Positions 3,987-62,881 of a stretch of 64,000 nucleotides of DNA are shown piece by piece. Numbering within the stretch: position 1 is the stretch's first letter; each line of letters begins with the position of its first letter. The notes below the pieces were generated by a model. It searched no databases. It was not told the DNA's origin and saw nothing but the letters and a program-made list of their open reading frames with translations. The stretch is from Oasisia sp. SBJ-2009 (taxonomy: Eukaryota; Annelida; Polychaeta; Sabellida; Siboglinidae). The translations under genes and the position numbers were made by a program. The stretch covers positions 37,840,230 through 37,904,229 of the forward strand of contig OZ024864.1 in assembly GCA_964017155.1 (NCBI GenBank), given 5' to 3'.

Positions 3987-4340
3987 TTTAGATTTTTTTC
4001 AACATTCACATGCTGTGACATAAGTGCATTTGAACAGTCATATTTCCAGGTGTGATTGTGGAAGCTGTTGACAGTGAAATGGTGCATTTTTAGCTGATTT
4101 CACTATGCGGATGGGTACTTGGCAGTGATTTGGCTTGTTGACACCTCTGTTGTGTTACTGCCTGCATTCATTTGTAAATATTGACGGGTGTCACACATAG
4201 CGGCACTTTACGAGAAAACGAAACATTGGAACTTGACTAAACTCGACCAGCTTGTCACTGAGATGATGATAACAACAGCCAATAAGTTTTAGAATTTTCC
4301 TGCGTCTGGTTTTTTTCTTATAATCCTACAAAACGCTAAC

Positions 4341-4805
4341 ATGGTGGCCAATGGGAAAGTTAACTGTGTCATGAGCCCTATTAGACGCCTAGCAGCAGAA
4401 ACAGTTTTTAGTTGGCGCGAGATGATGGAGGCAGCGTTCTTTGACAAATATTCCGAAATAATTAGTGACAAGGTGTGCGTGTCAAGCAACAGTGAGTGTC
4501 TCATTTGGACTGCCTGTACATCAGGTGAGAAAGTGAAGTATGGTGTAGTTAAAGTGACGTATAGTTGTGGAAACCGACGAACTATAAAAGCACACCGACT
4601 GGCCTTCATGCTATTTCATAGACAGACATTCTTGGCAGCACACCTAGATGCGTCGCATTTATGTCACAACAGTCTTTGTGTTAATGCCAACCACATCAAT
4701 CTTGAACCTCGTTCCATCAACAGTCAGAGAAATTCATGCAAGAAAACCGGCAATTGTAGCGGTCATGGTATATATCCGGCATGTCTGTTATGGCTACAAC
4801 TGTGA
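4341..4805 (+). CDS. His-Cys-box (I-PpoI-like) endonuclease, unit 1
   Basis: A 154-residue protein. The C-terminal half carries ASHLCHNSLC, NHINLEP and NSQRNSC. Aligned by eye to I-PpoI of Physarum, it has the general-base His (106; His98 there), the metal-ligand Asn (127; Asn119), the first zinc site (Cys53, Cys108, Cys113, His118; Cys41, Cys100, Cys105, His110) and the second (Cys133, Cys139, His142, Cys148). Spacing from His106 to Cys133 is identical to I-PpoI; the last zinc loop differs by one or two residues. The predicted reaction is sequence-specific double-strand DNA cleavage as a dimer. The ATG has a good Kozak context (A at -3, G at +4). There is no group I intron around it, unlike I-PpoI. 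The gene ends about 0.37 kb from the facing transposase. Residue 74 is Tyr here and Phe in all other units. No canonical TATA box or AATAAA flanks it. Confidence 0.87.
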   Translation: MVANGKVNCVMSPIRRLAAETVFSWREMMEAAFFDKYSEIISDKVCVSSNSECLIWTACTSGEKVKYGVVKVTYSCGNRRTIKAHRLAFMLFHRQTFLAAHLDASHLCHNSLCVNANHINLEPRSINSQRNSCKKTGNCSGHGIYPACLLWLQL

Positions 4806-5179
4806 AATGTGGTAAGAATGAACTCACTTTTTTTCCGGAGTGCATGTGCAGAATGAACTGTTCCGATATGTTGTCTCCTTGGCTCGTAACTGGTCAATGG
4901 ACTGGACAGTGTCACACGTGTGACGGCCATGCCGTGCAACAAGTGTGATGATCGTGTCGTATCGGTACAGCGTGATGATGGCGCGGAGCTATAGTCTTCT
5001 CATGGCGTATGTCAGACAGCAGGCAGGTGATCGATGGTGTACGTAGATTGTGTTCGCATTGCATAGACAGTCAAAGTTGCAGTTCAAGTAGACGCTAAGG
5101 AATAATACAAAGTCATATTGTTAGATTACTGTCTGTGTGCTCACTTCCATCTATTTAACTGTGTGGTGAGTGTGTCTGC
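4806..5179. other. Convergent intergenic spacer of the unit (unit 1 shown)
   Basis: This 0.37-kb spacer lies between the 3' ends of the endonuclease and transposase genes and recurs in every unit. It holds a GTAAGA string right after the endonuclease stop, a perfect 14-bp palindrome with a CACGTG core (4911-4924) and an adjoining small hairpin. I see no AATAAA on either strand, so the 3' ends of both transcripts are undefined. In units 2 and 3 a T-run ends in CAGGGG where the other units read CGG or a close variant. Confidence 0.6.
4911..4935. promoter_or_regulatory. Perfect 14-bp palindrome with E-box core, plus adjoining hairpin
   Basis: GTCACACGTGTGAC (4911-4924) is a perfect palindrome centred on CACGTG. 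The overlapping ACGGC-CAT-GCCGT (4923-4935) forms a second inverted repeat with a 3-nt loop. Both are present in all units I compared, for example 9191 and 60485. The site could bind a bHLH factor, be a nuclease site, or act as a small terminator-like hairpin between the convergent genes. Function is unknown. Confidence 0.5.
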
Positions 5180-7355
5180 CTACAATTTCTTAGCATAGGG
5201 GTGGTCGGCTGATTTCCGTGATCTTAGTGAATATGAGTTTTCAGTGTCATTGCCATGTGGGGTTGGGGGTGCACGTCTCCGTCTGCGTCTCACAGTTCTT
5301 ACTGGTGTGTGTGTGGCTGTCGCTGCTGTTATTGTCTGACTGGCTGGTCTGCGATCAAGCTGTCGCTTTCTGTAAACGTCAAGTACAGATCTCTGTTGTT
5401 TTGCCTTGAAGTAGTCTTTCATCCGCTGTGACTTTGTAGCTCGTCTGTGTCGGCGCACAGCTGGCTGCCTGGCATATTCTCGTTGGTACATAACATCTTG
5501 CTGGATGCGTTTTACTGCACGAGCAACTTTTCCACCCTTCGTAATGGGACACTGCACATTTTCTAGCTTCCGCAGCATCGATTCTCCAGCACCGTAGTTT
5601 AGGCGATCTATGACAGAACACACACGTCCCAGTGCATTGCGGCTGAACTTAACATTCTTGGGCAGTGATGCAGAGAAGGCTCTGTTTGCAGATTCGTTCG
5701 GGTTGGTTGTCAGTCTGCGGCGTGTCAAGTGAAGTGCGACATGGCCAAGACGCATCTCTATCAGTCCTTGGAGTGTGCTTCGATCACCGTCTGTCATGTT
5801 TACTCGTGTCAGGCCGCACGCCTTCAGATGCGGAGAGGTGTTCCACCAGTTCCTTCTGCCACCCCTGCAGACAATCGCGTGCCTGCGACAGTTAGCACAC
5901 GAACCTGCATAGCAGTCGAGTGTAGCCTGAATGACATCCGGCATGCGTGTCGCTATGGCAGTTTCATCGCTGTCGTGAAGCATATGGACACTGGTGTAGA
6001 CCATCTGACACCTTGTCTTCACATCCTCTGCAAACAGTCTTCTGTTTTCTGTTCGCCTCGCAGCATCCTCTCCGGGAAACATCATAGAGGAAAACGATGC
6101 CTTGATGATGTGACGAAATTGTGTCTGAGACAGATGTGTCGTATCGGATTGCCTCTGTGTTTCCATGCCAGCTGGCATGGCATCTTGTATGCCACGTGAA
6201 GCCAGTGCATCTCCATCTGTAGCGACATACTTGATTGCGACACCATCTCGTGCCAGACTGTCACCAATGTGTTTCCCGATCCTGTACTCAGACAGTGGCT
6301 CTGTAGCGGGGACATATAGGCTGTACATCCAACATGTCCAGGGCAGGTGACGTTTAACCCTTTACTTCGAAGTGAAGATCCTAATTTGCACAGTTTATTG
6401 TCCAGTTGGAAAGCTATGATTTCCCGTTGACCAGTTTGCCAGCTGAATGCAGTCCCGAGAGCCTGCGATGCATTCTGTCCACCACAGCTGTAAGTGTTTT
6501 TGAGGTTCGTAGAATTGTATCGAACATAGACGCTGATGTTAATCGGAGCATCTTCTGTCAGACCACGAAGAGTGTTAGTCTCCTTGGATCTCTGTCTTCT
6601 CATGTGCAAGTCATCCATTGTTGCTTGTGCAGTGAGTGCTGCCACCTTGTTCGCTGTTCTTTGCAATCCAGTGTGACTTGGAGGGGGTGTGTGCATTGCT
6701 GTCAGAATGTGACGGAACTTGGTAGTGGCGGTTGTTGTATCCTGCAGACCGATGTGAAGTGCTACATTCGTTGTGGCAGCCCGCTGACCACAGTGTCCAG
6801 TTTCAATCTCACTGTACAGCTTGTACATGCGTGAGTGATACTCGCAGTTCACACATTTCAACGACTCCTTCCAACAGAGGCCAATCTGTTGTTCCTGGTA
6901 TATTTGAAATTGTGGCGAAGGGCACATGTTCTGCTCGGCATGCTCAGTGTAGCATTCATTCCACATCTGAGCATTCTTTCCAACATTCAGCAAACGCATT
7001 TCGGAGAGGAAAGTCCTTGATTTTCATCTGGCTGGAGGTAGCTTTCTGTTAAAGTTAGTCCTCGGTTTGGCCGCGGCCGATGAATCTTGCTGCCGCCAGA
7101 TATTCCATCAGCATCAGGGACTGTCAAGAGGCCACCAGACGTTTCTTGTACAACTCTTGAGAAATCTTCCCTGTCTAGACGTGGCATCCATACAGAACTG
7201 TGCTGTGTTTCGGTCGTTTCGTCATGTGTTGATTCAAAATATGGGTGCCCTTGCTGAAAGCCACGGCTAGATTTGCACATTCTTCCAACAGGCGATGTTT
7301 TCCTATTACTAAGCTTACTCGTCTCATTATTCTCATTATTTGCAGTCTCCTTCAT
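5180..7355 (-). pseudogene. Mutator-like transposase, unit 1, two frameshifts, long basic tail
   Basis: The gene is split into three open segments: N-terminal (6987 to the ATG at 7355), middle (6082-6999) and C-terminal (5180-6328). Break 1 (about 7005) is an extra GA in GGAGAGGAAAG; break 2 (about 6311-6320) is a net 2-bp gain in GGACATATAGG. The open frame extends to 7466 only with a GTG, so I take the ATG at 7355. The C-terminal end is the full one: with five GT repeats (5305-5314) the frame runs on into a basic tail (TVRRRRRRAP, KSADHPYAKKL) that looks like a nuclear signal. Only units 1 and 10 keep this tail. Domain content is described at unit 11. Loop residues read IDRLNY, the variant also found in units 10 and 12-14. 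Confidence 0.75.
6163..6180. other. Perfect 18-bp palindrome inside the transposase gene (unit 1 copy)
   Basis: CCATGCCAGCTGGCATGG reads the same on both strands. It is present unchanged in all 14 units (last copy 61738-61755), encoding Ala-Met-Pro-Ala-Gly-Met of the transposase. His-Cys-box enzymes such as I-PpoI bind about 15-bp pseudo-palindromes as symmetric dimers, so this is a candidate target for the endonuclease encoded in the same unit. That link is inference; coding constraint alone could also keep it. Confidence 0.5.
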
Positions 7356-7536
7356 TGTAATCGTGCAGAGTAAACCCGGCAGAATTACAATTGGCAGAGA
7401 CAATCCGTGATTTAAGATTTCAGACGTCCAAGGAGTCTGAAAGTCCAAATCACAGTGACAGAACACTGTGTGTTAGGGGGGGTTGGGGAGTGGCTTAGAC
7501 CAGTGGAGCATCTGTTTGAAAATCTATGCCCAAAGT

Positions 7537-7569
7537 GGACCAATCAGAGTACAGCAGGGTGACCAATCT
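7537..7569 (-). promoter_or_regulatory. Paired CCAAT boxes upstream of the transposase
   Basis: GGACCAATCAGAG matches the NF-Y consensus, and a second CCAAT (GTGACCAATCT) follows 23 bp later, about 185-210 bp upstream of the transposase ATG. Closely paired CCAAT boxes are common in TATA-less eukaryotic promoters. In units 5 and 8 the first box is mutated to CTAAT. Confidence 0.4.
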
Positions 7570-7670
7570 ATCATTTTTTGTTTACTTCACCTAATTAGAA
7601 ACATGGAAAGACCCCAGGATAAGGTGCTAATGACAACTGGGCTGTGCAACTTCTGATAATCACCCCATAG

Positions 7671-7694: not shown

Positions 7695-8617
7695 TTCTGA
7701 CTTGATCACTGCTCAATCAGGCAAGTGTGACATTGTATCAGGTGTCTACTAATTGCATTGTGTAATACTTTGCAATTGAACCAATTAAGACATCTGGTCT
7801 TTGAAGAATGCTCACTTTAAGGTCATGTATCATGTATATTTACAGTCTTTTAATAGGGACAAGGGAAAACAGTCATCATAATTCTCACTGCAAAATGACA
7901 ATAGCCTGTATGTGATATTTTACAAAAAACATACTGGGCTCTCTGAAAAATTGGGTAATGTGTTCATATATGGCACACAAAAAAGTTTGTGCACTGTGTA
8001 GTTCTGCAAGATTAGGCATTTTGAAACTGTCGCCTGCTCACTGTTGTGGCGCTCGGTGAAATAGGGTGCACTTTGTAAATGTGTCTAAAAAAAAATGTGT
8101 GGATGAAATAAAAAAACAATTACAGCATGTTGCTTCAAATAGGAGTGCCAGTAAAATGTGTTAATTTCAGATTTTTTCGCCAAAACAACCATGTCTATTT
8201 GGGGTCATGACACAGTTAGACTTCCTGTTTGGTTACCGTTGCAACATAGTCCCATAAAAAAATAGATTTAGATTTTTTTCAACATTCACATGCTGTGACA
8301 TAAGTGCATTTGAACAGTCATATTTCCAGGTGTGATTGTGGAAGCTGTTGACAGTGAAATGGTGCATTTTTAGCTGATTTCACTATGCGGATGGGTACTT
8401 GGCGGTGATTTGGCTTGTTGACACCTCTGTTGTGTTACTGCCTGCATTCATTTGTAAATATTGACGGGTGTCACACATAGCGGCACTTTACGAGAGAACG
8501 AAACATTGGAACTTGACTAAACTCGACCAGCTTGTCACTGAGATGATGATAACAACAGCCAATACGTTTTAGAATTTTCCTGCGTCTGGTTTTCTTATAA
8601 TCCTACAAAACGCTAAC

Positions 8618-9082
8618 ATGGTGGCCAATGGGAAAGTTAACTGTGTCATGAGCCCTATTAGACGCCTAGCAGCAGAAACAGTTTTTAGTTGGCGCGAGAT
8701 GATGGAGGCAGCGTTCTTTGACAAATATTCCGAAATAATTAGTGACAAGGTGTGCGTGTCAAGCAACAGTGAGTGTCTCATTTGGACTGCCTGTACATCA
8801 GGTGAGAAAGTGAAGTATGGTGTAGTTAAAGTGACGTTTAGTTGTGGAAACCGACGAACTATAAAAGCACACCGACTGGCCTTCATGCTATTTCATAGAC
8901 AGACATTCTTGGCAGCACACCTAGATGCGTCGCATTTATGTCACAACAGTCTTTGTGTTAATGCCAACCACATCAATCTTGAACCTCGTTCCATCAACAG
9001 TCAGAGAAATTCATGCAAGAAAACCGGCAATTGTAGCGGTCATGGTATATATCCGGCATGTCTGTTATGGCTACAACTGTGA
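8618..9082 (+). CDS. His-Cys-box endonuclease, unit 2
   Basis: Intact 154-residue copy with Phe74 and all catalytic and zinc residues (His106, Asn127, two Cys/His sites). This protein sequence is the majority allele, shared exactly with units 3-9. The leader is three bases shorter than in unit 1 (a T-run before CTTATAATCC). The downstream spacer has the CAGGGG variant shared only with unit 3. Confidence 0.86.
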   Translation: MVANGKVNCVMSPIRRLAAETVFSWREMMEAAFFDKYSEIISDKVCVSSNSECLIWTACTSGEKVKYGVVKVTFSCGNRRTIKAHRLAFMLFHRQTFLAAHLDASHLCHNSLCVNANHINLEPRSINSQRNSCKKTGNCSGHGIYPACLLWLQL

Positions 9083-9577: not shown

Positions 9578-11636
9578 TTACTGGTGTGTGTGTGTGGCTG
9601 TCCCTGCTGTTATTGTCTGACTGGCTGGTCTGCGATCAAGCTGTCGCTTTCTGTAAACGTCAAGTACAGATCTCTGTTGTTTTGCCTTGAAGTAGTCTTT
9701 CATCCGCTGTGACTTTATAGCTCGTCTGTGTCGGCGCACAGCTGGCTGCCTGGCATATTCTCGTTGGTACATAACATCTTGCTGGATGCGTTTTACTGCA
9801 CGAGCAACTTTTCCACCCTTCGTAATGGGACACTGCACATTTTCTAGCTTCCGCAGCATCGATTCTCCAGCACCGTAGTTTACGTGATCTATGACAGAAC
9901 ACACACGTCCCAGTGCATTGCGGCTGAACTTAACATTCTTGGGCAGTGATGCAGAGAAGGCTCTGTTTGCAGATTCGTTCGGGTTGGTTGTCAGTCTGCG
10001 GCGTGTCAAGTGAAGTGCGACATGGCCAAGACGCATCTCTATCAGTCCTTGGAGTGTGCTTCGATCACCGTCTGTCATGTTTACTCGTGTCAGGCCGCAC
10101 GCCTTCAGATGCGGAGAGGTGTTCCACCAGTTCCTTCTGCCACCCCAGCAGACAATCGCGTGCCTGCGACAGTTAGCACACGAACCTGCATAGCAGTCGA
10201 GTGTAGCCTGAATGACATCCGGCATGCGTGTCGCTATGGCAGTTTCATCGCTGTCGTGAAGCATATGGACACTGGTGTAGACCATCTGACACCTTGTCTT
10301 CACATCCTCTGCAAACAGTCTTCTGTTTTCTGTTCGCCTCGCAGCATCCTCTCCGGGAAACATCATAGAGGAGAACGATGCCTTGATGATGTGACGAAAT
10401 TGTGTCTGAGACAGATGTGTCGTATCGGATTGCCTCTGTGTTTCCATGCCAGCTGGCATGGCATCTTGTATGCCACGTGAAGCCAGTGCATCTCCATCTG
10501 TAGCGACATACTTGATTGCGACACCATCTCGTGCCAGACTGTCACCAATGTGTTTCCCGATCCTGTACTCAGACAGTGGCTCTGTAGCGGGGACATATAG
10601 GCTGTACATCCAACATGTCCAGGGCAGGTGACGTTTAACCCTTTACTTCGGAGTGAAGATCCTAATTTGCACAGTTTATTGTCCAGTTGGAAAGCTATGA
10701 TTTCCCGTTGACCAGTTTGCCAGCTGAATGCAGTCCCGAGAGCCTGCGATGCATTCTGTCCACCACAGCTGTAAGTGTTTTTGAGGTTCGTAGAATTGTA
10801 TCGAACATAGACGCTGATGTTAATCGGAGCATCTTCTGGCAGACCACGAAGAGTGTTAGTCTCCTTGGATCTCTGTCTTCTCATGTGCAAGTCATCCATT
10901 GTTGCTTGTGCAGTGAGTGCTGCCACCTTGTTCGCTGTTCTTTGCAATCCAGTGTGACTTGGAGGGGGTGTGTGCATTGCTGTCAGAATGTGACGGAACT
11001 TGGTAGTGGCGGTTGTTGTATCCTGCAGACCGATGTGAAGTGCTACATTCGTTGTGGCAGCCCGCTGACCACAGTGTCCAGTTTCAATCTCACTGTACAG
11101 CTTGTACATGCGTGAGTGATACTCGCAGTTCACACATTTCAACGACTCCTTCCAACAGAGGCCAATCTGTTGTTCCTGGTATATTTGAAATTGTGGCGAA
11201 GGGCACATGTTCTGCTCGGCATGCTCAGTGTAGCATTCATTCCACATCTGAGCATTCTTTCCAACATTCAGCAAACGCATTTCGGAGAGGAAAGTTCTTG
11301 ATTTTCATCTGGCTGGAGGTAGCTTTCTGTTAAAGTTAGTCCTCGGTTTGGCCGCGGCCGAAGAATCTTGCTGCCGCCAGATATTCCATCAGCATCAGGG
11401 ACTGTCAAGAGGCCACCAGACGTTTCTTGTACAACTCTTGAGAAATCTTCCCTGTCTAGACGTGGCATCCATACAGAACTGTGCTGTGTTTCGGTCGTTT
11501 CGTCATGTGTTGATTCAAAATATGGGTGCCCTTGCTGAAAGCCACGGCTAGATTTGCACATTCTTCCAACAGGCGATGTTTTCCTATTACTAAGCTTACT
11601 CGTCTCATTATTCTCATTATTTGCAGTCTCCTTCAT
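9578..11636 (-). pseudogene. Mutator-like transposase, unit 2, two frameshifts
   Basis: Three segments: N-terminal (from ATG 11636), middle (10363-11280) and C-terminal (9578-10609). The 2-bp insertions near 11286 and 10596 are the same as in unit 1, so they are inherited. A sixth GT at 9584-9595 shifts the end, which stops after THTHQ and loses the basic tail. Loop variant IDHVNY, shared with units 3 and 6. Confidence 0.75.
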
Positions 11637-12898
11637 TGTAATCGTGCAGAGTAAACCCGGCAGAATTACAATTGGCAGAGACAATCCGTGATTTAAGATT
11701 TCAGACGTCCAAGGAGTCTGAAAGTCCAAATCACAGTGACAGAACACTGTGTGTTAGGGGGGGTTGGGGAGTGGCTTAGACCAGTGGAGCATCTGTTTGA
11801 AAATCTATGCCCAAAGTGGACCAATCAGAGTACAGCAGGGTGACCAATCTATCATTTTTTGTCTACTTCACCTAATTAGAAACATGGAAAGACCCCAGGA
11901 TAAGGTGCTAATGACAACTGGGCTGTGCAACTTCTGATAATCGCCCCCATAGGCCAGCCCACCCCTGGTGGCTGGCTTCTGACTTGATCACTGCTCAATC
12001 AGGCAAGTGTGACATTGTATCAGGTGTCTACTAATTGCATTGTGTAATACTTTGCAATTGAACCAATGAAGACGTCTGGTCTTTGAAGAATGCTCACTTT
12101 AAGGTCATGTATCATGTATATTTACAGTCTTTTAATAGGGACAAGGGAAAACAGTCATCATAATTCTCACTGCAAAATGACAATAGCCTGTATGTGATAT
12201 TTTACAAAAAACATACTGGGCTCTCTGAAAAATTGGGTAATGTGTTCATATATGGCACACAAAAAAGTTTGTGCACTGTGTAGTTCTGCAAGATTAGGCA
12301 TTTTGAAACTGTCGCCTGCTCACTGTTGTGGCGCTCGGTGAAATAGGGTGCACTTTGTAAATGTGTCTAAAAAAAAATGTGTGGATGAAATAAAAAACAA
12401 TTACAGCATGTTGCTTCAAATAGGAGTGCCAGTAAAATGTGTTAATTTCAGATTTTTTCGCCAAAACAACCATGTCTATTTGGGGTCATGACACAGTTAG
12501 ACTTCCTGTTTGGTTACCGTTGCAACATAGTCCCATAAAAAAATAGATTTAGATTTTTTTCAACATTCACATGCTGTGACATAAGTGCATTTGAACAGTC
12601 ATATTTCCAGGTGTGATTGTGGAAGCTGTTGACAGTGAAATGGTGCATTTTTAGCTGATTTCACTATGCGGATGGGTACTTGGCGGTGATTTGGCTTGTT
12701 GACACCTCTGTTGTGTTACTGCCTGCATTCATTTGTAAATATTGACGGGTGTCACACATAGCGGCACTTTACGAGAGAACGAAACATTGGAACTTGACTA
12801 AACTCGACCAGCTTGTCACTGAGATGATGATAACAACAGCCAATACGTTTTAGAATTTTCCTGCGTCTGGTTTTCTTATAATCCTACAAAACGCTAAC

Positions 12899-13363
12899 AT
12901 GGTGGCCAATGGGAAAGTTAACTGTGTCATGAGCCCTATTAGACGCCTAGCAGCAGAAACAGTTTTTAGTTGGCGCGAGATGATGGAGGCAGCGTTCTTT
13001 GACAAATATTCCGAAATAATTAGTGACAAGGTGTGCGTGTCAAGCAACAGTGAGTGTCTCATTTGGACTGCCTGTACATCAGGTGAGAAAGTGAAGTATG
13101 GTGTAGTTAAAGTGACGTTTAGTTGTGGAAACCGACGAACTATAAAAGCACACCGACTGGCCTTCATGCTATTTCATAGACAGACATTCTTGGCAGCACA
13201 CCTAGATGCGTCGCATTTATGTCACAACAGTCTTTGTGTTAATGCCAACCACATCAATCTTGAACCTCGTTCCATCAACAGTCAGAGAAATTCATGCAAG
13301 AAAACCGGCAATTGTAGCGGTCATGGTATATATCCGGCATGTCTGTTATGGCTACAACTGTGA
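12899..13363 (+). CDS. His-Cys-box endonuclease, unit 3
   Basis: Intact majority-allele copy (154 residues, all metal and catalytic residues kept). The 3' spacer still matches unit 2 (CAGGGG; CTAGTCAATGG), whereas from about 13615 the sequence becomes the type duplicated into units 6-8. The edge of the three-unit block therefore lies just downstream of this gene. Confidence 0.86.
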   Translation: MVANGKVNCVMSPIRRLAAETVFSWREMMEAAFFDKYSEIISDKVCVSSNSECLIWTACTSGEKVKYGVVKVTFSCGNRRTIKAHRLAFMLFHRQTFLAAHLDASHLCHNSLCVNANHINLEPRSINSQRNSCKKTGNCSGHGIYPACLLWLQL

Positions 13364-13858
13364 AATGTGGTAAGAATGAACTCACTTTTTTTCAGGGGAG
13401 TGCATGTGCAGAATGAACTGTTCCGATATGTTGTCTCCTTGGCTCGTAACTAGTCAATGGACTGGACAGTGTCACACGTGTGACGGCCATGCCGTGCAAC
13501 AAGTGTGATGATCGTGTCGTATCGGTACAGCGTGATGATGGCGCGGAGCTATAGTCTTCTCATGGCGTATGTCAGACAGCAGGCAGGTGATCGATGGTGT
13601 ACGTAGATTGTGCTCCCATTGCATAGACAGTCAAAGTTGCAGCTCAAGTAGACGCTAAGGAATAATACAAAGTCATATTGTTAGATTACTGTCTGTGTGC
13701 TCACTTCCATCTATTTAACTGTGTGGTGAGTGTGTCTGCCTACAATTTCTTAGCATAGGGGTGGTCGGCTGATTTCCGTGATCTTAGTGAATATGAGTGT
13801 TCAGTGTCATTGCCATGTGGGGTTGGGCGTGCACGTCTCCGTCTGCGTCTCACAGTTC

Positions 13859-17179: not shown

Positions 17180-17644
17180 ATGGTGGCCAATGGGAAAGTT
17201 AACTGTGTCATGAGCCCTATTAGACGCCTAGCAGCAGAAACAGTTTTTAGTTGGCGCGAGATGATGGAGGCAGCGTTCTTTGACAAATATTCCGAAATAA
17301 TTAGTGACAAGGTGTGCGTGTCAAGCAACAGTGAGTGTCTCATTTGGACTGCCTGTACATCAGGTGAGAAAGTGAAGTATGGTGTAGTTAAAGTGACGTT
17401 TAGTTGTGGAAACCGACGAACTATAAAAGCACACCGACTGGCCTTCATGCTATTTCATAGACAGACATTCTTGGCAGCACACCTAGATGCGTCGCATTTA
17501 TGTCACAACAGTCTTTGTGTTAATGCCAACCACATCAATCTTGAACCTCGTTCCATCAACAGTCAGAGAAATTCATGCAAGAAAACCGGCAATTGTAGCG
17601 GTCATGGTATATATCCGGCATGTCTGTTATGGCTACAACTGTGA
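17180..17644 (+). CDS. His-Cys-box endonuclease, unit 4
   Basis: Intact majority-allele copy with 154 residues. All ligand and catalytic positions are kept. The stop is followed by the GTAAGA string and a T-run ending CGGGAG, the common form. Confidence 0.86.
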   Translation: MVANGKVNCVMSPIRRLAAETVFSWREMMEAAFFDKYSEIISDKVCVSSNSECLIWTACTSGEKVKYGVVKVTFSCGNRRTIKAHRLAFMLFHRQTFLAAHLDASHLCHNSLCVNANHINLEPRSINSQRNSCKKTGNCSGHGIYPACLLWLQL

Positions 17645-51377: not shown

Positions 51378-51842
51378 ATGGTGGCCAATGGGAAAGTTAA
51401 CTGTGTCATGAGCCCTATTAGACGCCTAGCAACAGAAACAGTTTTTAGTTGGCGCGAGATGATGGAGGCAGCGTTCTTTGACAAATATTCCGAAATAATT
51501 AGTGACAAGGTGTGCGTGTCAAGCAACAGTGAGTGTCTCATTTGGACTGCCTGTACATCAGGTGAGAAAGTGAAGTATGGTGTAGTTAAAGTGATGTTTA
51601 GTTGTGGAAACCGACGAACTATAAAAGCACACCGACTGGCCTTCATGCTATTTCATAGACAGACATTCTTGGCAGCACACCTAGATGCGTCGCATTTATG
51701 TCACAACAGTCTTTGTGTTAATGCCAACCACATCCATCTTGAACCTCGTTCCATCAACAGTCAGAGAAATTCATGCAAGAAAACCGGCAATTGTAGCGGT
51801 CATGGTATATATCCGGCATGTCTGTTATGGCTACAACTGTGA
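51378..51842 (+). CDS. His-Cys-box endonuclease, unit 12, three substitutions
   Basis: Intact length, with Thr19 for Ala, Met73 for Thr and His120 for Asn. Position 120 lies two residues after the zinc ligand His118. All core residues are retained. It is the most divergent endonuclease in single substitutions. Confidence 0.85.
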   Translation: MVANGKVNCVMSPIRRLATETVFSWREMMEAAFFDKYSEIISDKVCVSSNSECLIWTACTSGEKVKYGVVKVMFSCGNRRTIKAHRLAFMLFHRQTFLAAHLDASHLCHNSLCVNANHIHLEPRSINSQRNSCKKTGNCSGHGIYPACLLWLQL

Positions 51843-52335: not shown

Positions 52336-54385
52336 TTACTGGTGTGTGTGTGTGGCTGTCGCTGCTGTTATTGTCTGACTGGCTGGTCTGTGATCAAGCT
52401 GTCGCTTTCTGTAAACGTCAAGTACAGATCTCTGTTGTTTTGCCTTGAAGTAGTCTTTCATCCGCTGTGACTTTGTAGCTCGTCTGTGTCGGCGCACAGC
52501 TGGCTGCCTGGCATATTCTCGTTGGTACATAACATCTTGCTGGATGCGTTTTACTGCACGGGCAACTTTTCCACCCTTCGTAATGGGACACTGCACATTT
52601 TCTAGCTTCCGCAGCATCGATTCTCCAGCACCGTAGTTTAGGCGATCTATGACAGAACACACACGTCCCAGTGCATTGCGGCTGAACTTAACATTCTTGG
52701 GCAGTGATGCAGAGAAGGCTCTGTTTGCAGATTCGTTCGGGTTGGTTGTCAGTCTGCGGCGTGTCAAGTGAAGTGCGACATGGCCAAGACGCATCTCTAT
52801 CAGTCCTTGGAGTGTGCTTCGATCACCGTCTGTCATGTTTACTCGTGTCAGGCCGCACGCCTTCAGATGCGGAGAGGTGTTCCACCAGTTCCTTCTGCCA
52901 CCCCTGCAGACAATCGCGTGCCTGCGACAGTTAGCACACGAACCTGCATAGCAGTCGAGTGTAGCCTGAATGACATCCGGCATGCGTGTCGCTATGGCAG
53001 TTTCATCGCTGTCGTGAAGCATATGGACACTGGTGTAGACCATCTGACACCTTGTCTTCACATCCTCTGCAAACAGTCTTCTGTTTTCTGTTCGCCTCGC
53101 AGCATCCTCTCCGGGAAACATCATAGAGGAGAACGATGCCTTCATGATGTGACGAAATTGTGTCTGAGACAGATGTGTCGTATCGGATTGCCTCTGTGTT
53201 TCCATGCCAGCTGGCATGGCATCTTGTATGCCACGTGAAGCCAGTGCATCTCCATCTGTAGTGACATACTTGATTGCGACACCATCTCGTGCCAGACTGT
53301 CACCAATGTGTTTCCCGATCCTGTACTCAGACAGTGGCTCTGTAGCTGGCACATTGGCTGTACATCCAACATGTCCAGGGCAGGTGACGTTTAACCCTTT
53401 ACTTCGAAGTGAAGATCCTAATTTGCACAGTTTATTGTCCAGTTGGAAAGCTATGATTTCCCGTTGACCAGTTTGCCAGCTGAATGCAGTCCCGAGAGCC
53501 TGCGATGCATTCTGTCCACCACAGCTGTAAGTGTTTTTGAGGTTCGTAGAATTGTATCGAACATAGACGCTGATGTTAATCGGAGCATCTTATGGCAGAC
53601 CACGAAGAGTGTTAGTCTCCTTGGATCTCTGTCTTCTCATGCGCAAGTCATCCATTGTTGCTTGTGCAGTGAGTGCTGCCACCTTGTTCGCTGTTCTTTG
53701 CAATCCAGTGTGACTTGGAGGGGGTGTGTGCATTGCTGTCAGAATGTGACGGAACTTGGTAGTGGCGATTGTTGTATCCTGCAGACCGATGTGAAGTGCT
53801 ACATTCGTTGTGGCAGCCCGCTGACCACAGTGTCCAGTTTCAATCTCACTGTACAGCTTGTACATGCGTGAGTTCACAGTTCACACATTTCAACGACTCC
53901 TTCCAACAGAGGCCAATCTGTTGTTCCTGGTATATTTGAAATTGTGGCGAAGGGCACATGTTCTGCTCGGCATGCTCAGTGTAGCATTCATTCCACATCT
54001 GAGCATTCTTTCCAACATTCAGCAAACGCATTTCGGAGGAAAGTCCTTGATTTTCATCTGGCTGGAGGTAGCTTTCTGTTAAAGTTAGTCCTCGGTTTGG
54101 CCGCGGCCGAAGAATCTTGCTGCCGCCAGATATTCCATCAGCATCAGGGACTGTCAAGATGCCACCAGACGTTTCTTGTACAACTCTTGAGAAATCTTCC
54201 CTGTCTAGACGTGGCATCCATACAGAACTGTGCTGTGTTTCGGTCGTTTCGTCATGTGTTGATTCAAAATATGGGTGCCCTTGCTGAAAGCCACGGCTAG
54301 ATTTGCACATTCTTCCAACAGGCGATGTTTTCCTATTACTAAGCTTACTCGTCTCATTATTCTCATTATTTGCAGTCTCCTTCAT
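52336..54385 (-). pseudogene. Mutator-like transposase, unit 12, deletion plus stop
   Basis: No 2-bp insertions, but a 5-bp deletion (about 53873) and a nonsense change (Glu codon to TAA at 53590-53592, in GLPED). Open pieces are ATG 54385 to 53846, then 53877 to 53590, then from the stop to 52336 (first Met at 53352). Short six-GT end, IDRLNY. Confidence 0.76.
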
Positions 54386-55644
54386 TGTAATCGTGCAGAG
54401 TAATCCCGGCAGAATTACAATTGGCAGAGACAAACTGTGATTTAAGATTTCAGACGTCCAAGGAGTCTGAAAGTCCAAATCACAGTGACAGAACACTGTG
54501 TGTTAGGGGGGTGGGGAGTGGCTCAGACCAGTGGAGCATCTGTTTGAAAATCTATGCCCAAAGTGGACCAATCAGAGTACAGCACGGTGACCAATCTATC
54601 ATTTTTTATTTACTTCACCTAATTAGAAACATGGAAAGACCCCAGGATAAGGTGCTAATGACAACTGGGCTGTGCAACTTCTGATAATCGCCCCCATAGG
54701 CCAGCCCACCCCTGGTGGCTGGCTTCTGACTTGATCACTGCTCAATCAGGCAAGTGTGACAGTGTATCAGGTGTCTACTAATTGCATTGTGTAATACTTT
54801 GCAATTGAACCAATTAAGACGTCTGGTCTTTGAAGAATGCTCACTTTAAGGTCAATTATCATGTATATTTACAGTCTTTTAATAGGGACAAGGGAAAACA
54901 GTCATCATAATTCTCACTGCAAAATGACAATAGCCTGTATGTGATATTTTACAAAAAACATACTGGGCTCTCTGAAAAATTGGGTAATGTGTTCATATAT
55001 GGCACACACAAAAGTTTGTGCACTGTGTAGTTCTGCAAGATTAGGCATTTTGAAACTGTCGCCTGCTCACTGTTGTGGCGCTCGGTGAAATAGGGTGCAC
55101 TTTGTAAATGTGTCTAAAAAAAAAAATGTGTGGATGAAATAAAAAAACAATTACAGCATGTTGCTTCAAATAGGAGTGCCAGTAAAATGTGTTAATTTCA
55201 GATTTTTTCGCCAAAACAACCATGTCTATTTGGGGTCATGACACAGACTTCCTGTTTGGTTACCGTTGCAACATAGTCCCATAAAAAAATAGATTTAGAT
55301 TTTTTTCAACATTCACATGCTGTGACATAAGTGCATTTGAACAGTCATATTTCCAGGTGTGATTGTGGAAGCTGTTGACAGTGAAATGGTGCATTTTTAG
55401 CTGATTTCACTATGCGGATGGGTACTTGGCAGTGATTTAGCTTGTTGACACCTCTGTTGTGTTACTGCCTGCATTCATTTGTAAATATTGACGGGTGTCA
55501 CACATAGCGGCACTTTACGAGAGAACGAAACATTGGAACTTGACTAAACTCGACCAGCTTGTCACTGAGATGATGATAACAACAGCCAATACGTTTTAGA
55601 ATTTTCCTGCGTCTGGTTTTCTTATAATCCTACAAAACGCTAAC

Positions 55645-56109
55645 ATGGTGGCCAATTGGAAAGTTAACTGTGTCATGAGCCCTATTAGACGCCTAGCAGC
55701 AGAAAAACTTTTTAGTTGGAGCGAGATGATGGAGGCAGCGTTCTTTGACAAATATTCCGAAATAATTAGTGACAAGGTGTGCGTGTCAAGCAACAGTGAG
55801 TGTCTCATTTGGACTGCCTGTACATCAGGTGAGAAAGTGAAATATGGTGTAGTAAAAGTGACGTTTAGTTGTGGAAACCGACGAACTATAAAAGCACACC
55901 GACTGGCCTTCATGCTACTTCATAGACAGACATTCTTGGCAGCACACCTAGATGCGTCGCATTTATGTCACAACAGTCTTTGTGTTAATGCCAACCACAT
56001 CAATCTTGAACCTCGTTCCATCAACAGTCAGAGAAATTCATGCAAGAAAACCGGCAATTGTAGCGGTCATGGTATATATCCGGCATGTCTGTTATGGCTA
56101 CAACTGTGA
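55645..56109 (+). CDS. His-Cys-box endonuclease, unit 13, variant allele
   Basis: Intact. It has the unit 10 allele changes (Lys21, Leu22, Ser26, Leu92) plus Trp5 for Gly. Identical in protein to unit 14, 4,268 bp downstream. Confidence 0.86.
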   Translation: MVANWKVNCVMSPIRRLAAEKLFSWSEMMEAAFFDKYSEIISDKVCVSSNSECLIWTACTSGEKVKYGVVKVTFSCGNRRTIKAHRLAFMLLHRQTFLAAHLDASHLCHNSLCVNANHINLEPRSINSQRNSCKKTGNCSGHGIYPACLLWLQL

Positions 56110-56603: not shown

Positions 56604-58653
56604 TTACTGGTGTGTGTGTGTGGCTGTCGCTGCTGTTATTGTCTGACTGGCTGGTCTGCGATCAAGCTGTCGCTTTCTGTAAACGTCAAGTACAGATCTC
56701 TGTTGTTTTGCCTTGAAGTAGTCTTTCATCCGCTGTGACTTTGTAGCTCGTCTGTGTCGGCGCACAGCTGGCTGCCTGGCATATTCTCGTTGGTACATAA
56801 CATCTTGCTGGATGCGTTTTACTGCACGGGCAACTTTTCCACCCTTCGTAATGGGACACTGCACATTTTCTAGCTTCCGCAGCATCGATTCTCCAGCACC
56901 GTAGTTTAGGCGATCTATGACAGAACACACACGTCCCAGTGCATTGCGGCTGAACTTAACATTCTTGGGCAGTGATGCAGAGAAGGCTCTGTTTGCAGAT
57001 TCGTTCGGGTTGGTTGTCAGTCTGCGGCGTGTCAAGTGAAGTGCGACATGGCCAAGACGCATCTCTATCAGTCCTTGGAGTGTGCTTCGATCACCGTCTG
57101 TCATGTTTACTCGTGTCAGGCCGCACGCCTTCAGATGCGGAGAGGTGTTCCACCAGTTCCTTCTGCCACCCCTGCAGACAATCGCGTGCCTGCGACAGTT
57201 AGCACACGAACCTGCATAGCAGTCGAGTGTAGCCTGAATGACATCCGGCATGCGTGTCGCTATGGCAGTTTCATCGCTGTCGTGAAGCATATGGACACTG
57301 GTGTAGACCATCTGACACCTTGTCTTCACATCCTCTGCAAACAGTCTTCTGTTTTCTGTTCGCCTCGCAGCATCCTCTCCGGGAAACATCATAGAGGAGA
57401 ACGATGCCTTGATGATGTGACGAAATTGTGTCTGAGACAGATGTGTCGTATCGGATTGCCTCTGTGTTTCCATGCCAGCTGGCATGGCATCTTGTATGCC
57501 ACGTGAAGCCAGTGCATCTCCATCTGTAGCGACATACTTGATTGCGACACCATCTCGTGCCAGACTGTCACCAATGTGTTTCCCGATCCTGTACTCAGAC
57601 AGTGGCTCTGTAGCTGGCACATTGGCTGTACATCCAACATGTCCAGGGCAGGTGACGTTTAACCCTTTACTTCGAAGTGAAGATCCTAATTTGCACAGTT
57701 TATTGTCCAGTTGGAAAGCTATGATTTCCCGTTGACCAGTTTGCCAGCTGAATGCAGTCCCGAGAGCCTGCGATGCATTCTGTCCACCACAGCTGTAAGT
57801 GTTTTTGAGGTTCGTAGAATTGTATCGAACATAGACGCTGATGTTAATCGGAGCATCTTATGGCAGACCACGAAGAGTGTTAGTCTCCTTGGATCTCTGT
57901 CTTCTCATGCGCAAGTCATCCATTGTTGCTTGTGCAGTGAGTGCTGCCACCTTGTTCGCTGTTCTTTGCAATCCAGTGTGACTTGGAGGGGGTGTGTGCA
58001 TTGCTGTCAGAATGTGACGGAACTTGGTAGTGGCGATTGTTGTATCCTGCAGACCGATGTGAAGTGCTACATTCGTTGTGGCAGCCCGCTGACCACAGTG
58101 TCCAGTTTCAATCTCACTGTACAGCTTGTACATGCGTGAGTTCACAGTTCACACATTTCAACGACTCCTTCCAACAGAGGCCAATCTGTTGTTCCTGGTA
58201 TATTTGAAATTGTGGCGAAGGGCACATGTTCTGCTCGGCATGCTCAGTGTAGCATTCATTCCACATCTGAGCATTCTTTCCAACATTCAGCAAACGCATT
58301 TCGGAGGAAAGTCCTTGATTTTCATCTGGCTGGAGGTAGCTTTCTGTTAAAGTTAGTCCTCGGTTTGGCCGCGGCCGAAGAATCTTGCTGCCGCCAGATA
58401 TTCCATCAGCATCAGGGACTGTCAAGATGCCACCAGACGTTTCTTGTACAACTCTTGAGAAATCTTCCCTGTCTAGACGTGGCATCCATACAGAACTGTG
58501 CTGTGTTTCGGTCGTTTCGTCATGTGTTGATTCAAAATATGGGTGCCCTTGCTGAAAGCCACGGCTAGATTTGCACATTCTTCCAACAGGCGATGTTTTC
58601 CTATTACTAAGCTTACTCGTCTCATTATTCTCATTATTTGCAGTCTCCTTCAT
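56604..58653 (-). pseudogene. Mutator-like transposase, unit 13, deletion plus stop
   Basis: Same lesions as unit 12: a 5-bp deletion (about 58141) and a TAA (57858-57860). Open pieces are ATG 58653 to 58114, 58145 to 57858, and on to 56604 (first Met 57620). The shared lesions show that units 12 and 13 are recent sisters here. Short six-GT end, IDRLNY. Confidence 0.76.
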
Positions 58654-59912
58654 TGTAATCGTGCAGAGTAATCCCGGCAGAATTACAATTGGCAGAGACA
58701 AACTGTGATTTAAGATTTCAGACGTCCAAGGAGTCTGAAAGTCCAAATCACAGTGACAGAACACTGTGTGTTAGGGGGGTGGGGAGTGGCTCAGACCAGT
58801 GGAGCATCTGTTTGAAAATCTATGCCCAAAGTGGACCAATCAGAGTACAGCACGGTGACCAATCTATCATTTTTTATTTACTTCACCTAATTAGAAACAT
58901 GGAAAGACCCCAGGATAAGGTGCTAATGACAACTGGGCTGTGCAACTTCTGATAATCGCCCCCATAGGCCAGCCCACCCCTGGTGGCTGGCTTCTGACTT
59001 GATCACTGCTCAATCAGGCAAGTGTGACAGTGTATCAGGTGTCTACTAATTGCATTGTGTAATACTTTGCAATTGAACCAATTAAGACGTCTGGTCTTTG
59101 AAGAATGCTCACTTTAAGGTCAATTATCATGTATATTTACAGTCTTTTAATAGGGACAAGGGAAAACAGTCATCATAATTCTCACTGCAAAATGACAATA
59201 GCCTGTATGTGATATTTTACAAAAAACATACTGGGCTCTCTGAAAAATTGGGTAATGTGTTCATATATGGCACACACAAAAGTTTGTGCACTGTGTAGTT
59301 CTGCAAGATTAGGCATTTTGAAACTGTCGCCTGCTCACTGTTGTGGCGCTCGGTGAAATAGGGTGCACTTTGTAAATGTGTCTAAAAAAAAAAATGTGTG
59401 GATGAAATAAAAAAACAATTACAGCATGTTGCTTCAAATAGGAGTGCCAGTAAAATGTGTTAATTTCAGATTTTTTCGCCAAAACAACCATGTCTATTTG
59501 GGGTCATGACACAGACTTCCTGTTTGGTTACCGTTGCAACATAGTCCCATAAAAAAATAGATTTAGATTTTTTTCAACATTCACATGCTGTGACATAAGT
59601 GCATTTGAACAGTCATATTTCCAGGTGTGATTGTGGAAGCTGTTGACAGTGAAATGGTGCATTTTTAGCTGATTTCACTATGCGGATGGGTACTTGGCAG
59701 TGATTTAGCTTGTTGACACCTCTGTTGTGTTACTGCCTGCATTCATTTGTAAATATTGACGGGTGTCACACATAGCGGCACTTTACGAGAGAACGAAACA
59801 TTGGAACTTGACTAAACTCGACCAGCTTGTCACTGAGATGATGATAACAACAGCCAATACGTTTTAGAATTTTCCTGCGTCTGGTTTTCTTATAATCCTA
59901 CAAAACGCTAAC

Positions 59913-60377
59913 ATGGTGGCCAATTGGAAAGTTAACTGTGTCATGAGCCCTATTAGACGCCTAGCAGCAGAAAAACTTTTTAGTTGGAGCGAGATGATGG
60001 AGGCAGCGTTCTTTGACAAATATTCCGAAATAATTAGTGACAAGGTGTGCGTGTCAAGCAACAGTGAGTGTCTCATTTGGACTGCCTGTACATCAGGTGA
60101 GAAAGTGAAATATGGTGTAGTAAAAGTGACGTTTAGTTGTGGAAACCGACGAACTATAAAAGCACACCGACTGGCCTTCATGCTACTTCATAGACAGACA
60201 TTCTTGGCAGCACACCTAGATGCGTCGCATTTATGTCACAACAGTCTTTGTGTTAATGCCAACCACATCAATCTTGAACCTCGTTCCATCAACAGTCAGA
60301 GAAATTCATGCAAGAAAACCGGCAATTGTAGCGGTCATGGTATATATCCGGCATGTCTGTTATGGCTACAACTGTGA
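59913..60377 (+). CDS. His-Cys-box endonuclease, unit 14, variant allele
   Basis: Intact, with the same protein as unit 13 (Trp5, Lys21, Leu22, Ser26, Leu92). It is the last endonuclease before the array ends. Confidence 0.86.
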   Translation: MVANWKVNCVMSPIRRLAAEKLFSWSEMMEAAFFDKYSEIISDKVCVSSNSECLIWTACTSGEKVKYGVVKVTFSCGNRRTIKAHRLAFMLLHRQTFLAAHLDASHLCHNSLCVNANHINLEPRSINSQRNSCKKTGNCSGHGIYPACLLWLQL

Positions 60378-60871
60378 AATGTGGTAAGAATGAACTCACT
60401 TTTTTTCGGGAGTGCATGTGCAGAATGAACTGTTCCGATATGTTGTCTCCTTGGCTCGTAACTGGTCAATGGACTGGACAGTGTCACACGTGTGACGGCC
60501 ATGCCGTGCAACAAGTGTGATGATCGTGTCGTATCGGTACAGCGTGATGATGGCGCGGAGCTATAGTGTTCTCATGGCGTATGTCAGACAGCAGGCAGGT
60601 GATCGATGGTTTACGTAGATTGTGTTCGCATTGCATACACAGTCAAAGTTGCAGCTCAAGTAGACGCTAAGGAATTATACAAAGTCATATTGTTAGATTA
60701 CTGTCTTGTGTGCTCACTTCCATCTATTTAACTGTGTGGTGAGTGTGTCTGCCTACAATTTCTTAGCATAGGGGTGGTCGGCTGATTTCCGTGATCTTAG
60801 TGAATATGAGTGTTCAGTGTCATTGACATGTGGGGTTGGGGGTGCACGTCTCCGTCTGCGTCTCACAGTTC

Positions 60872-62851
60872 TTACTGGTGTGTGTGTGTGGCTGTCGCTG
60901 CTGTTATTGTCTGACTGGCTGGTCTGCGATCAAGCTGTCGCTTTCTGTAAACGTCAAGTACAGATCTCTGTTGTTTTGCCTTGAAGTAGTCTTTCATCCG
61001 CTGTGACTTTGTAGCTCGTCTGTGTCGGCGCACAGCTGGCTGCCTGGCATATTCTCGTTGGTACATAACATCTTGCTGGATGCGTTTTACTGCACGAGCA
61101 ACTTTTCCACCCTTCGTAATGGGACACTGCACATTTTCTAGCTTCCGCAGCATCGATTCTCCAGCACCGTAGTTTAGGCGATCTATGACAGAACACACAC
61201 GTCCCAGTGCATTGCGGCTGAACTTAACATTCTTGGGCAGTGATGCAGAGAAGGCTCTGTTTGCAGATTCGTTCGGGTTGGTTGTCAGTCTGCGGCGTGT
61301 CAAGTGAAGTGCGACATGGCCAAGACGCATCTCTATCAGTCCTTGGAGTGTGCTTCGATCACCGTCTGTCATGTTTACTCGTGTCAGGCCGCACGCCTTC
61401 AGATGCGGAGAGGTGTTCCACCAGTTCCTTCTGCCACCCCTGCAGACAATCGCGTGCCTGCGACAGTTAGCACACGAACCTGCATAGCAGTCGAGTGTAG
61501 CCTGAATGACATCCGGCATGCGTGTCGCTATGGCAGTTTCATCGCTGTCGTGAAGCATATGGACACTGGTGTAGACCATCTGACACCTTGTCTTCACATC
61601 CTCTGAAAACAGTCTTCTGTTTTCTGTTCGCCTCGCTGCATTCTCTCCGGGAAACATCATAGAGGAGAACGATGCCTTCACGATGTGACGAAATTGTGTC
61701 TGAGACAGATGTGTCGTATTGGATTGCCTCTGTGTTTCCATGCCAGCTGGCATGGCATCTTGTATGCCACGTGAAGCCAGTGCATCTCCATCTGTAGCGA
61801 CATACTTGATTGCGACACCATCTCGTGCCAGACTGTCACCAATGTGTTTCCCGATCCTGTACTCAGACAGTGGCTCTGTAGCGGGGACATTGGCTGTACA
61901 TCCAACATGTCCAGGGCAGGTGACGTTTAACCCTTTACTTCGAAGTGAAGATCCTAATTTGCACAGTTTATTGTCCAGTTGGAAAGCTATGATTTCCCGT
62001 TGACCAGTTTGCCAGCTGAATGCAGTCCCGAGAGCCTGCGATGCATTCTGTCCACCACAGCTGTAAGTGTTTTTGAGGTTCGTAGAATTGTATCGAACAT
62101 AGACACTGATGTTAATCGGAGCATCTTCTGGCAGACCACCAAGAGTGTTAGTCTCCTTGGATCTCTGTCTTCTCATGCGCAAGTCATCCATTGTTGCTTG
62201 TGCAGTGAGTGCTGCCACCTTGTTCGCTGTTCTTTGCAATCCAGTGTGACTTGGAGGGGGTGTGTGCATTGCTGTCAGAATGTGACGGAACTTGGTAGTG
62301 GCGGTTGTTGTATCCTGCAGACCGATGTGAAGTGCTACATTCGTTGTGGCAGCCCGCTGACCACAGTGTCCAGTTTCAATCTCACTGTACAGCTTGTACA
62401 TGCGTGAGTGATACTCGCAGTTCACACATTTCAACGACTCCTTCCAACAGAGGCCAATCTGTTGTTCCTGGTATAATTGAAATTGTGGCGAAGGGCACAT
62501 GTTCTGCTCGGCATGCTCAGTGTAGCATTCATTCCACATCTGAGCATTCTTTCCAACATTCAGCAAACGCATTTCGGAGGAAAGTCCTTGATTTTCATCT
62601 GGCTGGAGGTAGCTTTCTGTTAAAGTTAGTCCTCGGTTTGGCCGCGGCCGAAGAATCTTGCTGCCGCCAGATATTCCATCAGCATCAGGGACTGTCAAGA
62701 GGCCACCAGACGTTTCTTGTACAACTCTTGAGAAATCTTCCCTGTCTAGACGTGGCATCCATACAGAACTGTGCTGTGTTTCGGTCGTTTCGTCATGTGT
62801 TGATTCAAAATATGGGTGCCCTTGCTGAAAGCCACGGCTAGATTTGCACAT
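60872..62851 (-). CDS. Mutator-like transposase, unit 14, open but 5'-truncated
   Basis: One open frame of 659 residues from Met 62851 (MCKSSRGF) to the short THTHQ end. It has no frameshift or stop and keeps the NKVAA segment missing from unit 11. The array ends at 62881, so the first 25 residues of the standard start and the whole promoter are lost, and a TAA just beyond the junction closes the frame upstream. All the core motifs (Cys cluster, TDGD, zinc cluster, NPNES) are intact. It could be expressed only from a flanking promoter. Confidence 0.72.
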   Translation of the reverse strand: MCKSSRGFQQGHPYFESTHDETTETQHSSVWMPRLDREDFSRVVQETSGGLLTVPDADGISGGSKILRPRPNRGLTLTESYLQPDENQGLSSEMRLLNVGKNAQMWNECYTEHAEQNMCPSPQFQLYQEQQIGLCWKESLKCVNCEYHSRMYKLYSEIETGHCGQRAATTNVALHIGLQDTTTATTKFRHILTAMHTPPPSHTGLQRTANKVAALTAQATMDDLRMRRQRSKETNTLGGLPEDAPINISVYVRYNSTNLKNTYSCGGQNASQALGTAFSWQTGQREIIAFQLDNKLCKLGSSLRSKGLNVTCPGHVGCTANVPATEPLSEYRIGKHIGDSLARDGVAIKYVATDGDALASRGIQDAMPAGMETQRQSNTTHLSQTQFRHIVKASFSSMMFPGENAARRTENRRLFSEDVKTRCQMVYTSVHMLHDSDETAIATRMPDVIQATLDCYAGSCANCRRHAIVCRGGRRNWWNTSPHLKACGLTRVNMTDGDRSTLQGLIEMRLGHVALHLTRRRLTTNPNESANRAFSASLPKNVKFSRNALGRVCSVIDRLNYGAGESMLRKLENVQCPITKGGKVARAVKRIQQDVMYQREYARQPAVRRHRRATKSQRMKDYFKAKQQRSVLDVYRKRQLDRRPASQTITAATATHTHQ

Positions 62852-62881
62852 TCTTCCAACAGGCGATGTTTTCCTATTACT

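Follow-up and report, generated by a model that had tools for sequence, protein, structure and literature searches.

The 64,000-nucleotide stretch analysed here (the window) comes from the siboglinid annelid Oasisia sp. SBJ-2009 (NCBI GenBank assembly GCA_964017155.1, contig OZ024864.1, positions 37,840,230 to 37,904,229 of the forward strand), and 59 kb of it form a single head-to-tail array that its sequence identifies as a KolobokP tandem multimer. KolobokP elements are animal DNA transposons that combine a DDD/E transposase with a convergent I-PpoI-like nuclease (Kojima & Bao 2022; PMC9587614), and they have been proposed to spread in two ways, by the transposase and by nuclease-induced unequal crossover. 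Autonomous copies confound these two routes. The present array separates them within its own units, as all 14 are predicted to have a dead transposase and all 14 keep the nuclease. The reading that we favour, with a rough probability of 0.52, is that the multimer grew from a founder with a dead transposase by unequal recombination between copies, probably begun by cuts of the nuclease.

Self-BLAST of the window delimits the array, which has non-array DNA on both sides, and alignment of the units (numbered U1 to U14 from the left) gives 14 unit starts with a period of 4259-4281 bp (4.26-4.28 kb). Thirteen periods are complete, and U14 is partial, being cut at the right end of the array after 3321 bp, or 78% of the length. 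Unit pairs diverge by 0.00-1.39% in substitutions and are separated by 155 variable alignment columns, such that all units can be told apart except U4 and U7, between which there is no substitution. In every unit the + strand carries the nuclease open reading frame (ORF) and the − strand the transposase region, in convergent orientation. The original prediction of 14 head-to-tail units, each with a complete endonuclease ORF facing a transposase gene, is thus borne out for the array and for the convergent nuclease ORF, found in 14/14 units; an undamaged transposase is found in 0/14, and the prediction overlooked the long terminal direct repeat (LTDR; 451-455 bp) that stands at each junction together with its terminal inverted repeats (TIRs). 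Because the units are distinguishable, U4 and U7 apart, and the flanks are non-array, the data argue against a pure assembly artefact in which a few true units were multiplied by the assembler. The lack of substitutions between U4 and U7 would suit such an artefact, yet copying of one unit would hardly produce the 155 variable columns or indels confined to single units, for example a 15-bp deletion in U11, and the nuclease cluster lists 25 member sequences, more than the 6 distinct nuclease proteins that the window encodes; we regard this explanation as very improbable.

The LTDRs of KolobokP are about 450 or 660 bp long and carry their own short TIRs with 5′-RR..YY-3′ termini (PMC9587614). 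In the array, an 18-bp inverted repeat with 17 paired positions bounds 455 bp at 8201-8655, which constitute an LTDR with its TIRs and termini of the form 5′-GG..CC-3′; none of 200 first-order Markov controls of the unit contained a comparable inverted repeat (at most 1 mismatch in 18, with a span of 430-480 or 640-690). The 13 internal LTDRs measure 455 bp (nine, with TIR pairing of 17/18), 454 bp (one) or 451 bp (three). All 13 have the left TIR, which lacks 4 bp in three of them, and 14/14 LTDRs have the right one. The nuclease ORF starts within the LTDR, which in the array is flanked by two outward-facing genes and may therefore hold the promoters of both. Published multimers have the structure (LTDR-INT)n-LTDR, where INT is the internal part, between target-site duplications (TSDs) (PMC9587614). 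The repeated LTDR-INT is present here with truncated outer ends: on the left, LTDR position 67 abuts unrelated DNA, the first 66 bp and the left TIR being gone, and on the right the last unit breaks off at 62881, 30 bp past the Met that opens the U14 transposase frame, and ends without an LTDR. No TSD is seen at the truncated ends.

The 4-bp deletion common to the three 451-bp LTDRs lies at the inner edge of the left TIR, at a site that mirrors the TTAA core of the right TIR. Its size equals that of the overhang left by I-PpoI, which is four bases (PMC9587614); slippage between two AG steps is an equally good explanation.

The nuclease ORF comprises 154 amino acids (aa) in 13 units and 144 aa in U11, where it is shortened by a 1-bp deletion upstream of the domain, in the LTDR part. 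The U1 protein matches the Pfam domain PF05551 (zf-His_Me_endon; E=4.6e-10) and also I-PpoI (phmmer E = 0.0076; profile E = 2.8e-5), such that the motif SHLCHN...H...N and the Cys/His residues are aligned; these comprise the S/H, H and N active-site residues and the Cys/His zinc sites of a His-Cys box. Eleven residues with roles assigned from the I-PpoI alignment and the residue list of PMC9587614 were checked (S105, H106, C108, C113, H118, E122, N127, C133, C139, H142 and C148), and all 11 are kept in 14/14 units, in none of which is there an internal stop from residue 11 onward. Since 7 of 15 aligned relatives begin at a Met over residues 28-29, and one more two residues earlier, the true start is probably near residues 28-29 (15 of 16 matches were used, P0001 being excluded as near-identical to the query).

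The transposase frame of U14 matches PF20700 (Mutator-like transposase; E=1.7e-49). In 14/14 units, residue 308 (as numbered in U11) is a Tyr, where 20/20 homologues have an Asp, all 20 matches having been aligned; the alignment used for folding held 17, without the partial P0021, P0033 and P0034. One homologue, P0017, is 97% identical over 91% and represents a cluster of 54 members, the catalytic Asp being read in the representative. In the AlphaFold model of P0017, Asp251, the equivalent of position 308, lies on strand 246-255, Asp354/356 just after strand 348-353, and Glu528 on helix 525-537. In HIV-1 integrase, Asp64 is a catalytic residue. Structural alignment of the model with this enzyme pairs residue 244 of the model with residue 57 of the integrase at its start, and Asp251 would correspond to Asp64 if the strand is ungapped; the transposase profile had no match among PDB sequences up to E = 10. 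The transposase is thus predicted to be dead in all 14 units, its predicted first catalytic Asp having been replaced, and other lesions have accumulated besides. U1-U8 and U10 are frameshifted by two 2-bp length changes, U9, U12 and U13 by the loss of 5 bp, and U12 and U13 also share a nonsense codon. A 2-bp length change removes the C-terminal tail in 12/14 units (exceptions U1 and U10), U14 has Asn for the Asp of DxxH, and the 15-bp deletion of U11 removes five internal residues. The open frames of U11 and U14 were considered as intact transposases and rejected, since both have the Tyr at the catalytic position. A further variable site among the units changes Asn304 to Lys and is distinct from the Tyr.

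The assignment to KolobokP is based on the conjunction of these features: a DDD/E transposase with DxxH and a CCHC finger after the first Asp, a convergent His-Me nuclease of the His-Cys-box type, 13 internal LTDRs of close to 450 bp, TIRs of 18 bp, a length that published ones also reach, and GG..CC termini that conform to RR..YY. The unit length is close to the 4.0-4.7 kb of autonomous oyster families, and tandem (LTDR-INT)n multimers occur in KolobokP, which has been reported from seven animal phyla, including its nonautonomous families (PMC9587614). The supposition that no described animal element has this gene pair is wrong, and the pairing is rejected as an undescribed one; the designation ‘Mutator-like’ stands only as the Pfam name of PF20700; this label does not define MuDR, and DxxH, CCHC, LTDR and TIRs fit KolobokP, so that ‘Mutator element’ is not a precise name. 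MuDR/Mutator elements proper have MuDR-type TIRs and TSDs of 8-9 bp. What distinguishes the array from published KolobokP is its make-up of 13 complete units and a partial one, the predicted loss of all transposases at one position with the nuclease kept, and the truncation of both ends, with no TSD seen. I-PpoI itself is encoded by a Physarum group I intron and shares the SHLCHN...H...N motif and Cys/His residues, but only 42-48 residues align by sequence and the host here is a transposon, not an intron; enzymes of this type cut a semi-palindromic site and leave 4-nt 3′ overhangs. Transposon-derived satellites are other head-to-tail transposon repeats. TRIM retrotransposon arrays, cited in PMC9587614, likewise present a transposable element head-to-tail, but the units here are 4.3 kb long, have an open nuclease gene each and involve no reverse transcription.

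The units record a history of exchange. Three pairs are nearly identical (U3/U6, 0.05%; U4/U7, 0.00%; U5/U8, 0.09%), in comparison with 0.12-0.40% for other pairs among U2-U8, and the block of units 3-5 recurs as units 6-8 with 4 differences in 13.5 kb at a shift of 12,837 bp. Exchange probably went on after this block duplication, because two of the four differences are alleles present in other units; the block could also be an assembly duplication. The four-gamete test, which assumes no recurrent mutation (this would inflate the count), yields at least 17 non-overlapping recombination intervals, the recombination and diversity counts being based on units 1-13 with the partial U14 left out. 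The pattern among the units is that of unequal exchange and conversion, and growth of the array needed no transposase from its own units. As the Tyr is common to all units, a dead founder is the simplest history, with spread of the Tyr by gene conversion as the alternative.

In the reading that we favour, the transposase of the founder would already have been dead before amplification, the nuclease would be expressed and active and would cut inside the unit, and repair from a misaligned sister or neighbour would add units, as Kojima & Bao propose for KolobokP; in their model the nuclease cuts within the LTDR and repair adds a unit by unequal crossover (PMC9587614). The array fits this model insofar as no unit is expected to yield a working transposase, and it offers a concrete locus for the published proposal. 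Because multimers are present in 10 of 19 families in Table 2 of PMC9587614, something in the element would seem to favour them, and it is mainly for this reason that nuclease-provoked recombination is ranked above passive exchange. The nuclease as the driver of expansion is unproven, being neither shown nor excluded.

Several observations weigh against an initiating role of the nuclease. The crossover that duplicated the block maps, by excess match length, to within 13453..14164 (or its equivalents) and not to the LTDR, which occupies 12482-12936, and the recombination intervals are scattered along the unit and not focused on the LTDR, although resection could shift the exchange point away from an LTDR cut. 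No nuclease-specific constraint is detectable within the array, where the nuclease (counted from residue 11) shows 8 nonsynonymous and 4 synonymous changes and the dead transposase 39 and 18, respectively (Fisher p = 1). An absence of disabling hits in the approximately 0.4 kb of the nuclease is expected by chance about 3 times in 10, according to our own estimate from some 7 disabling events per 2.15 kb of transposase, and intactness in 14/14 units does not in itself prove selection. The AlphaFold model of the nuclease is poor (predicted local distance difference test, pLDDT, 54), and searching with it for similar folds produced no match at E <= 0.001. Two nonautonomous Corbicula families, with monomers of 2637 and 2453 bp, form 24 and 30 multimers, respectively (PMC9587614); there a transposase in cis is unneeded, and perhaps also a nuclease in cis, and in this respect multimer formation without a transposase in cis is not new. 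Finally, the Asp-bearing representative P0017 implies that a transposase could act in trans.

The spread of exchange over the whole unit, the crossover outside the LTDR, the similar ratios of nonsynonymous to synonymous changes, and the fact that an intact gene of 0.4 kb is not improbable by chance would all be accommodated by passive, satellite-like growth, wherein ordinary unequal sister-chromatid exchange, together with gene conversion, enlarged a broken KolobokP multimer, and the nuclease is an uninvolved passenger, intact for no other reason than the youth of the array. We hold this explanation to be possible, if only tentatively; the multimers in 10/19 families (PMC9587614) suggest a promoting factor in the element, which counts against it, although LTDRs alone could suffice, and the present data do not strongly discriminate between passive and nuclease-provoked growth. 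A more far-reaching variant of nuclease-provoked growth, which we consider unlikely, is that this KolobokP lineage has given up transposition and now propagates as a coding tandem repeat, with self-cutting and misaligned repair adding and homogenising units. If true, a homing endonuclease would be homing into its own copies within the array, and a transposon would have turned into a self-amplifying megasatellite.

Multimerisation could also depend on a transposase supplied in trans, with LTDR-INT circles produced by an intact KolobokP at another locus and inserted into LTDRs, so that the array is built up. A circle route has been considered for KolobokP multimers (PMC9587614), a suitable enzyme might be provided by the cluster of P0017, and the TIRs that it would act on are retained at the LTDRs as described above. 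Each inserted circle would, however, have to derive from dead copies, the Tyr being common to all units, and the three-unit copy U3-5/U6-8 with its crossover outside the LTDR fits homologous exchange; this route is therefore judged improbable. For 8 of the 20 transposase matches the longest contig measures 4.0-4.5 kb, and for none does it fall between 4.5 and 30 kb; a length of 4.0-4.5 kb approximates one LTDR-INT unit and would fit collapsed repeats or circles alike.

With regard to the two genes occurring together elsewhere, which the original prediction had put forward as a check, support comes from PMC9587614 and from one coincidence in the database: the longest contig given for nuclease P0008 and that given for transposase P0018 both measure 133,498 bp, from which we infer that they are on the same contig. 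This is a single shared value between the best 120 of 130 nuclease matches and the 20 transposase matches. The genome contigs scanned yielded one relative, on a 3.2-kb contig (L001) of a Chromatiales metagenome-assembled genome, and the viral contigs scanned yielded none (one scan gave no pattern match and another gave 114 pattern matches). The contig of the Chromatiales genome encodes a 666-aa transposase relative (33% identical; 533-2533) and the transposase only, and is probably misbinned eukaryotic DNA, that is, contamination. Coordinates of the array and its components are listed in Table 1.

Table 1. Components of the KolobokP array, in positions of the window (Tyr, tyrosine at the predicted first catalytic position of the transposase).
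Feature	Position	Strand	Basis
Tandem array, 14 units (13 complete + 1 partial): (truncated LTDR)-INT-(LTDR-INT)12-LTDR-(truncated INT)	3987..62881		Self-BLAST, unit alignment, LTDR positions
Block (units 3-5) duplicated as units 6-8	13453..27000 -> 26290..39837		Self-BLAST, shift 12,837 bp
Left-most LTDR, without first 66 bp and left TIR	3987..4378		LTDR mapping
LTDR, 455 bp; TIRs 8201-8218 / 8638-8655 (17/18 paired), GG..CC	8201..8655		Inverted-repeat search, Markov controls
LTDR, 455 bp	12482..12936		LTDR mapping
LTDR, 455 bp	16763..17217		LTDR mapping
LTDR, 455 bp	21041..21495		LTDR mapping
LTDR, 455 bp	25321..25775		LTDR mapping
LTDR, 455 bp	29600..30054		LTDR mapping
LTDR, 455 bp	33878..34332		LTDR mapping
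LTDR, 455 bp	38158..38612		LTDR mapping
LTDR, 451 bp, 4-bp deletion at left TIR inner edge	42427..42877		LTDR mapping
LTDR, 454 bp	46702..47155		LTDR mapping
LTDR, 455 bp	50961..51415		LTDR mapping
LTDR, 451 bp, same 4-bp deletion	55232..55682		LTDR mapping
LTDR, 451 bp, same 4-bp deletion	59500..59950		LTDR mapping
U1 His-Me nuclease ORF, 154 aa, 11 checked residues intact	4341..4805	+	Pfam, I-PpoI match, residue check
U2 nuclease ORF, 154 aa, 11 residues intact	8618..9082	+	ORF, residue check
U3 nuclease ORF, 154 aa, 11 residues intact	12899..13363	+	ORF, residue check
U4 nuclease ORF, 154 aa, 11 residues intact	17180..17644	+	ORF, residue check
U5 nuclease ORF, 154 aa, 11 residues intact	21458..21922	+	ORF, residue check
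U6 nuclease ORF, 154 aa, 11 residues intact	25738..26202	+	ORF, residue check
U7 nuclease ORF, 154 aa, 11 residues intact	30017..30481	+	ORF, residue check
U8 nuclease ORF, 154 aa, 11 residues intact	34295..34759	+	ORF, residue check
U9 nuclease ORF, 154 aa, 11 residues intact	38575..39039	+	ORF, residue check
U10 nuclease ORF, 154 aa, 11 residues intact	42840..43304	+	ORF, residue check
U11 nuclease ORF, 144 aa (1-bp deletion upstream, LTDR part), 11 residues intact	47148..47582	+	ORF, residue check
U12 nuclease ORF, 154 aa, 11 residues intact	51378..51842	+	ORF, residue check
U13 nuclease ORF, 154 aa, 11 residues intact	55645..56109	+	ORF, residue check
U14 nuclease ORF, 154 aa, 11 residues intact	59913..60377	+	ORF, residue check
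U1 transposase region: two frameshifts, Tyr	5306..7466	-	Alignment
U2 transposase region: two frameshifts, tail lost, Tyr	9581..11747	-	Alignment
U3 transposase region: two frameshifts, tail lost, Tyr	13862..16028	-	Alignment
U4 transposase region: two frameshifts, tail lost, Tyr	18141..20307	-	Alignment
U5 transposase region: two frameshifts, tail lost, Tyr	22419..24585	-	Alignment
U6 transposase region: two frameshifts, tail lost, Tyr	26699..28865	-	Alignment
U7 transposase region: two frameshifts, tail lost, Tyr	30978..33144	-	Alignment
U8 transposase region: two frameshifts, tail lost, Tyr	35256..37422	-	Alignment
U9 transposase region: 5-bp deletion frameshift, tail lost, Tyr	39536..41693	-	Alignment
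U10 transposase region: two frameshifts, Tyr	43806..45966	-	Alignment
U11 transposase: longest open frame, 716 aa; Tyr, 5-residue internal deletion, tail lost	48079..50226	-	Alignment
U12 transposase region: 5-bp deletion frameshift, nonsense codon, tail lost, Tyr	52339..54496	-	Alignment
U13 transposase region: 5-bp deletion frameshift, nonsense codon, tail lost, Tyr	56607..58764	-	Alignment
U14 transposase: open frame 659 aa; Tyr, Asn in DxxH, tail lost, upstream part cut by array end	60875..62881	-	Alignment

Two candidate targets of the nuclease were considered, and neither is claimed. The first, GTCACACGTGTGAC, is a perfect 14-bp palindrome between both genes (9190-9203 and equivalents, 14/14 units) that falls within the mapped crossover interval; another 14-bp palindrome is present in the transposase region. 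Among randomised units, however, 26-28% are expected to have at least one such palindrome and 3-4% at least two, and the left flank also has one. The second candidate, a near-palindrome centred on TTAA at the inner TIR edge (8632), is unremarkable by our estimate.

The left flank of the array contains a minisatellite at 2181-2817 (period 130 bp, 4.9 copies, 89% matches) with an inner period of about 41 bp, and an ORF at 3324-3713 (−) with weak similarity to GDSL hydrolases (E = 0.0024, below the curated cut-off). Further to the left, a reverse transcriptase ORF at 1-1128 (−; PF00078, E = 8.4e-9) runs off the window edge and is accompanied by a 422-aa ORF at 884-2152 (−) with no Pfam match up to E = 0.1; the two are perhaps parts of a retrotransposon.

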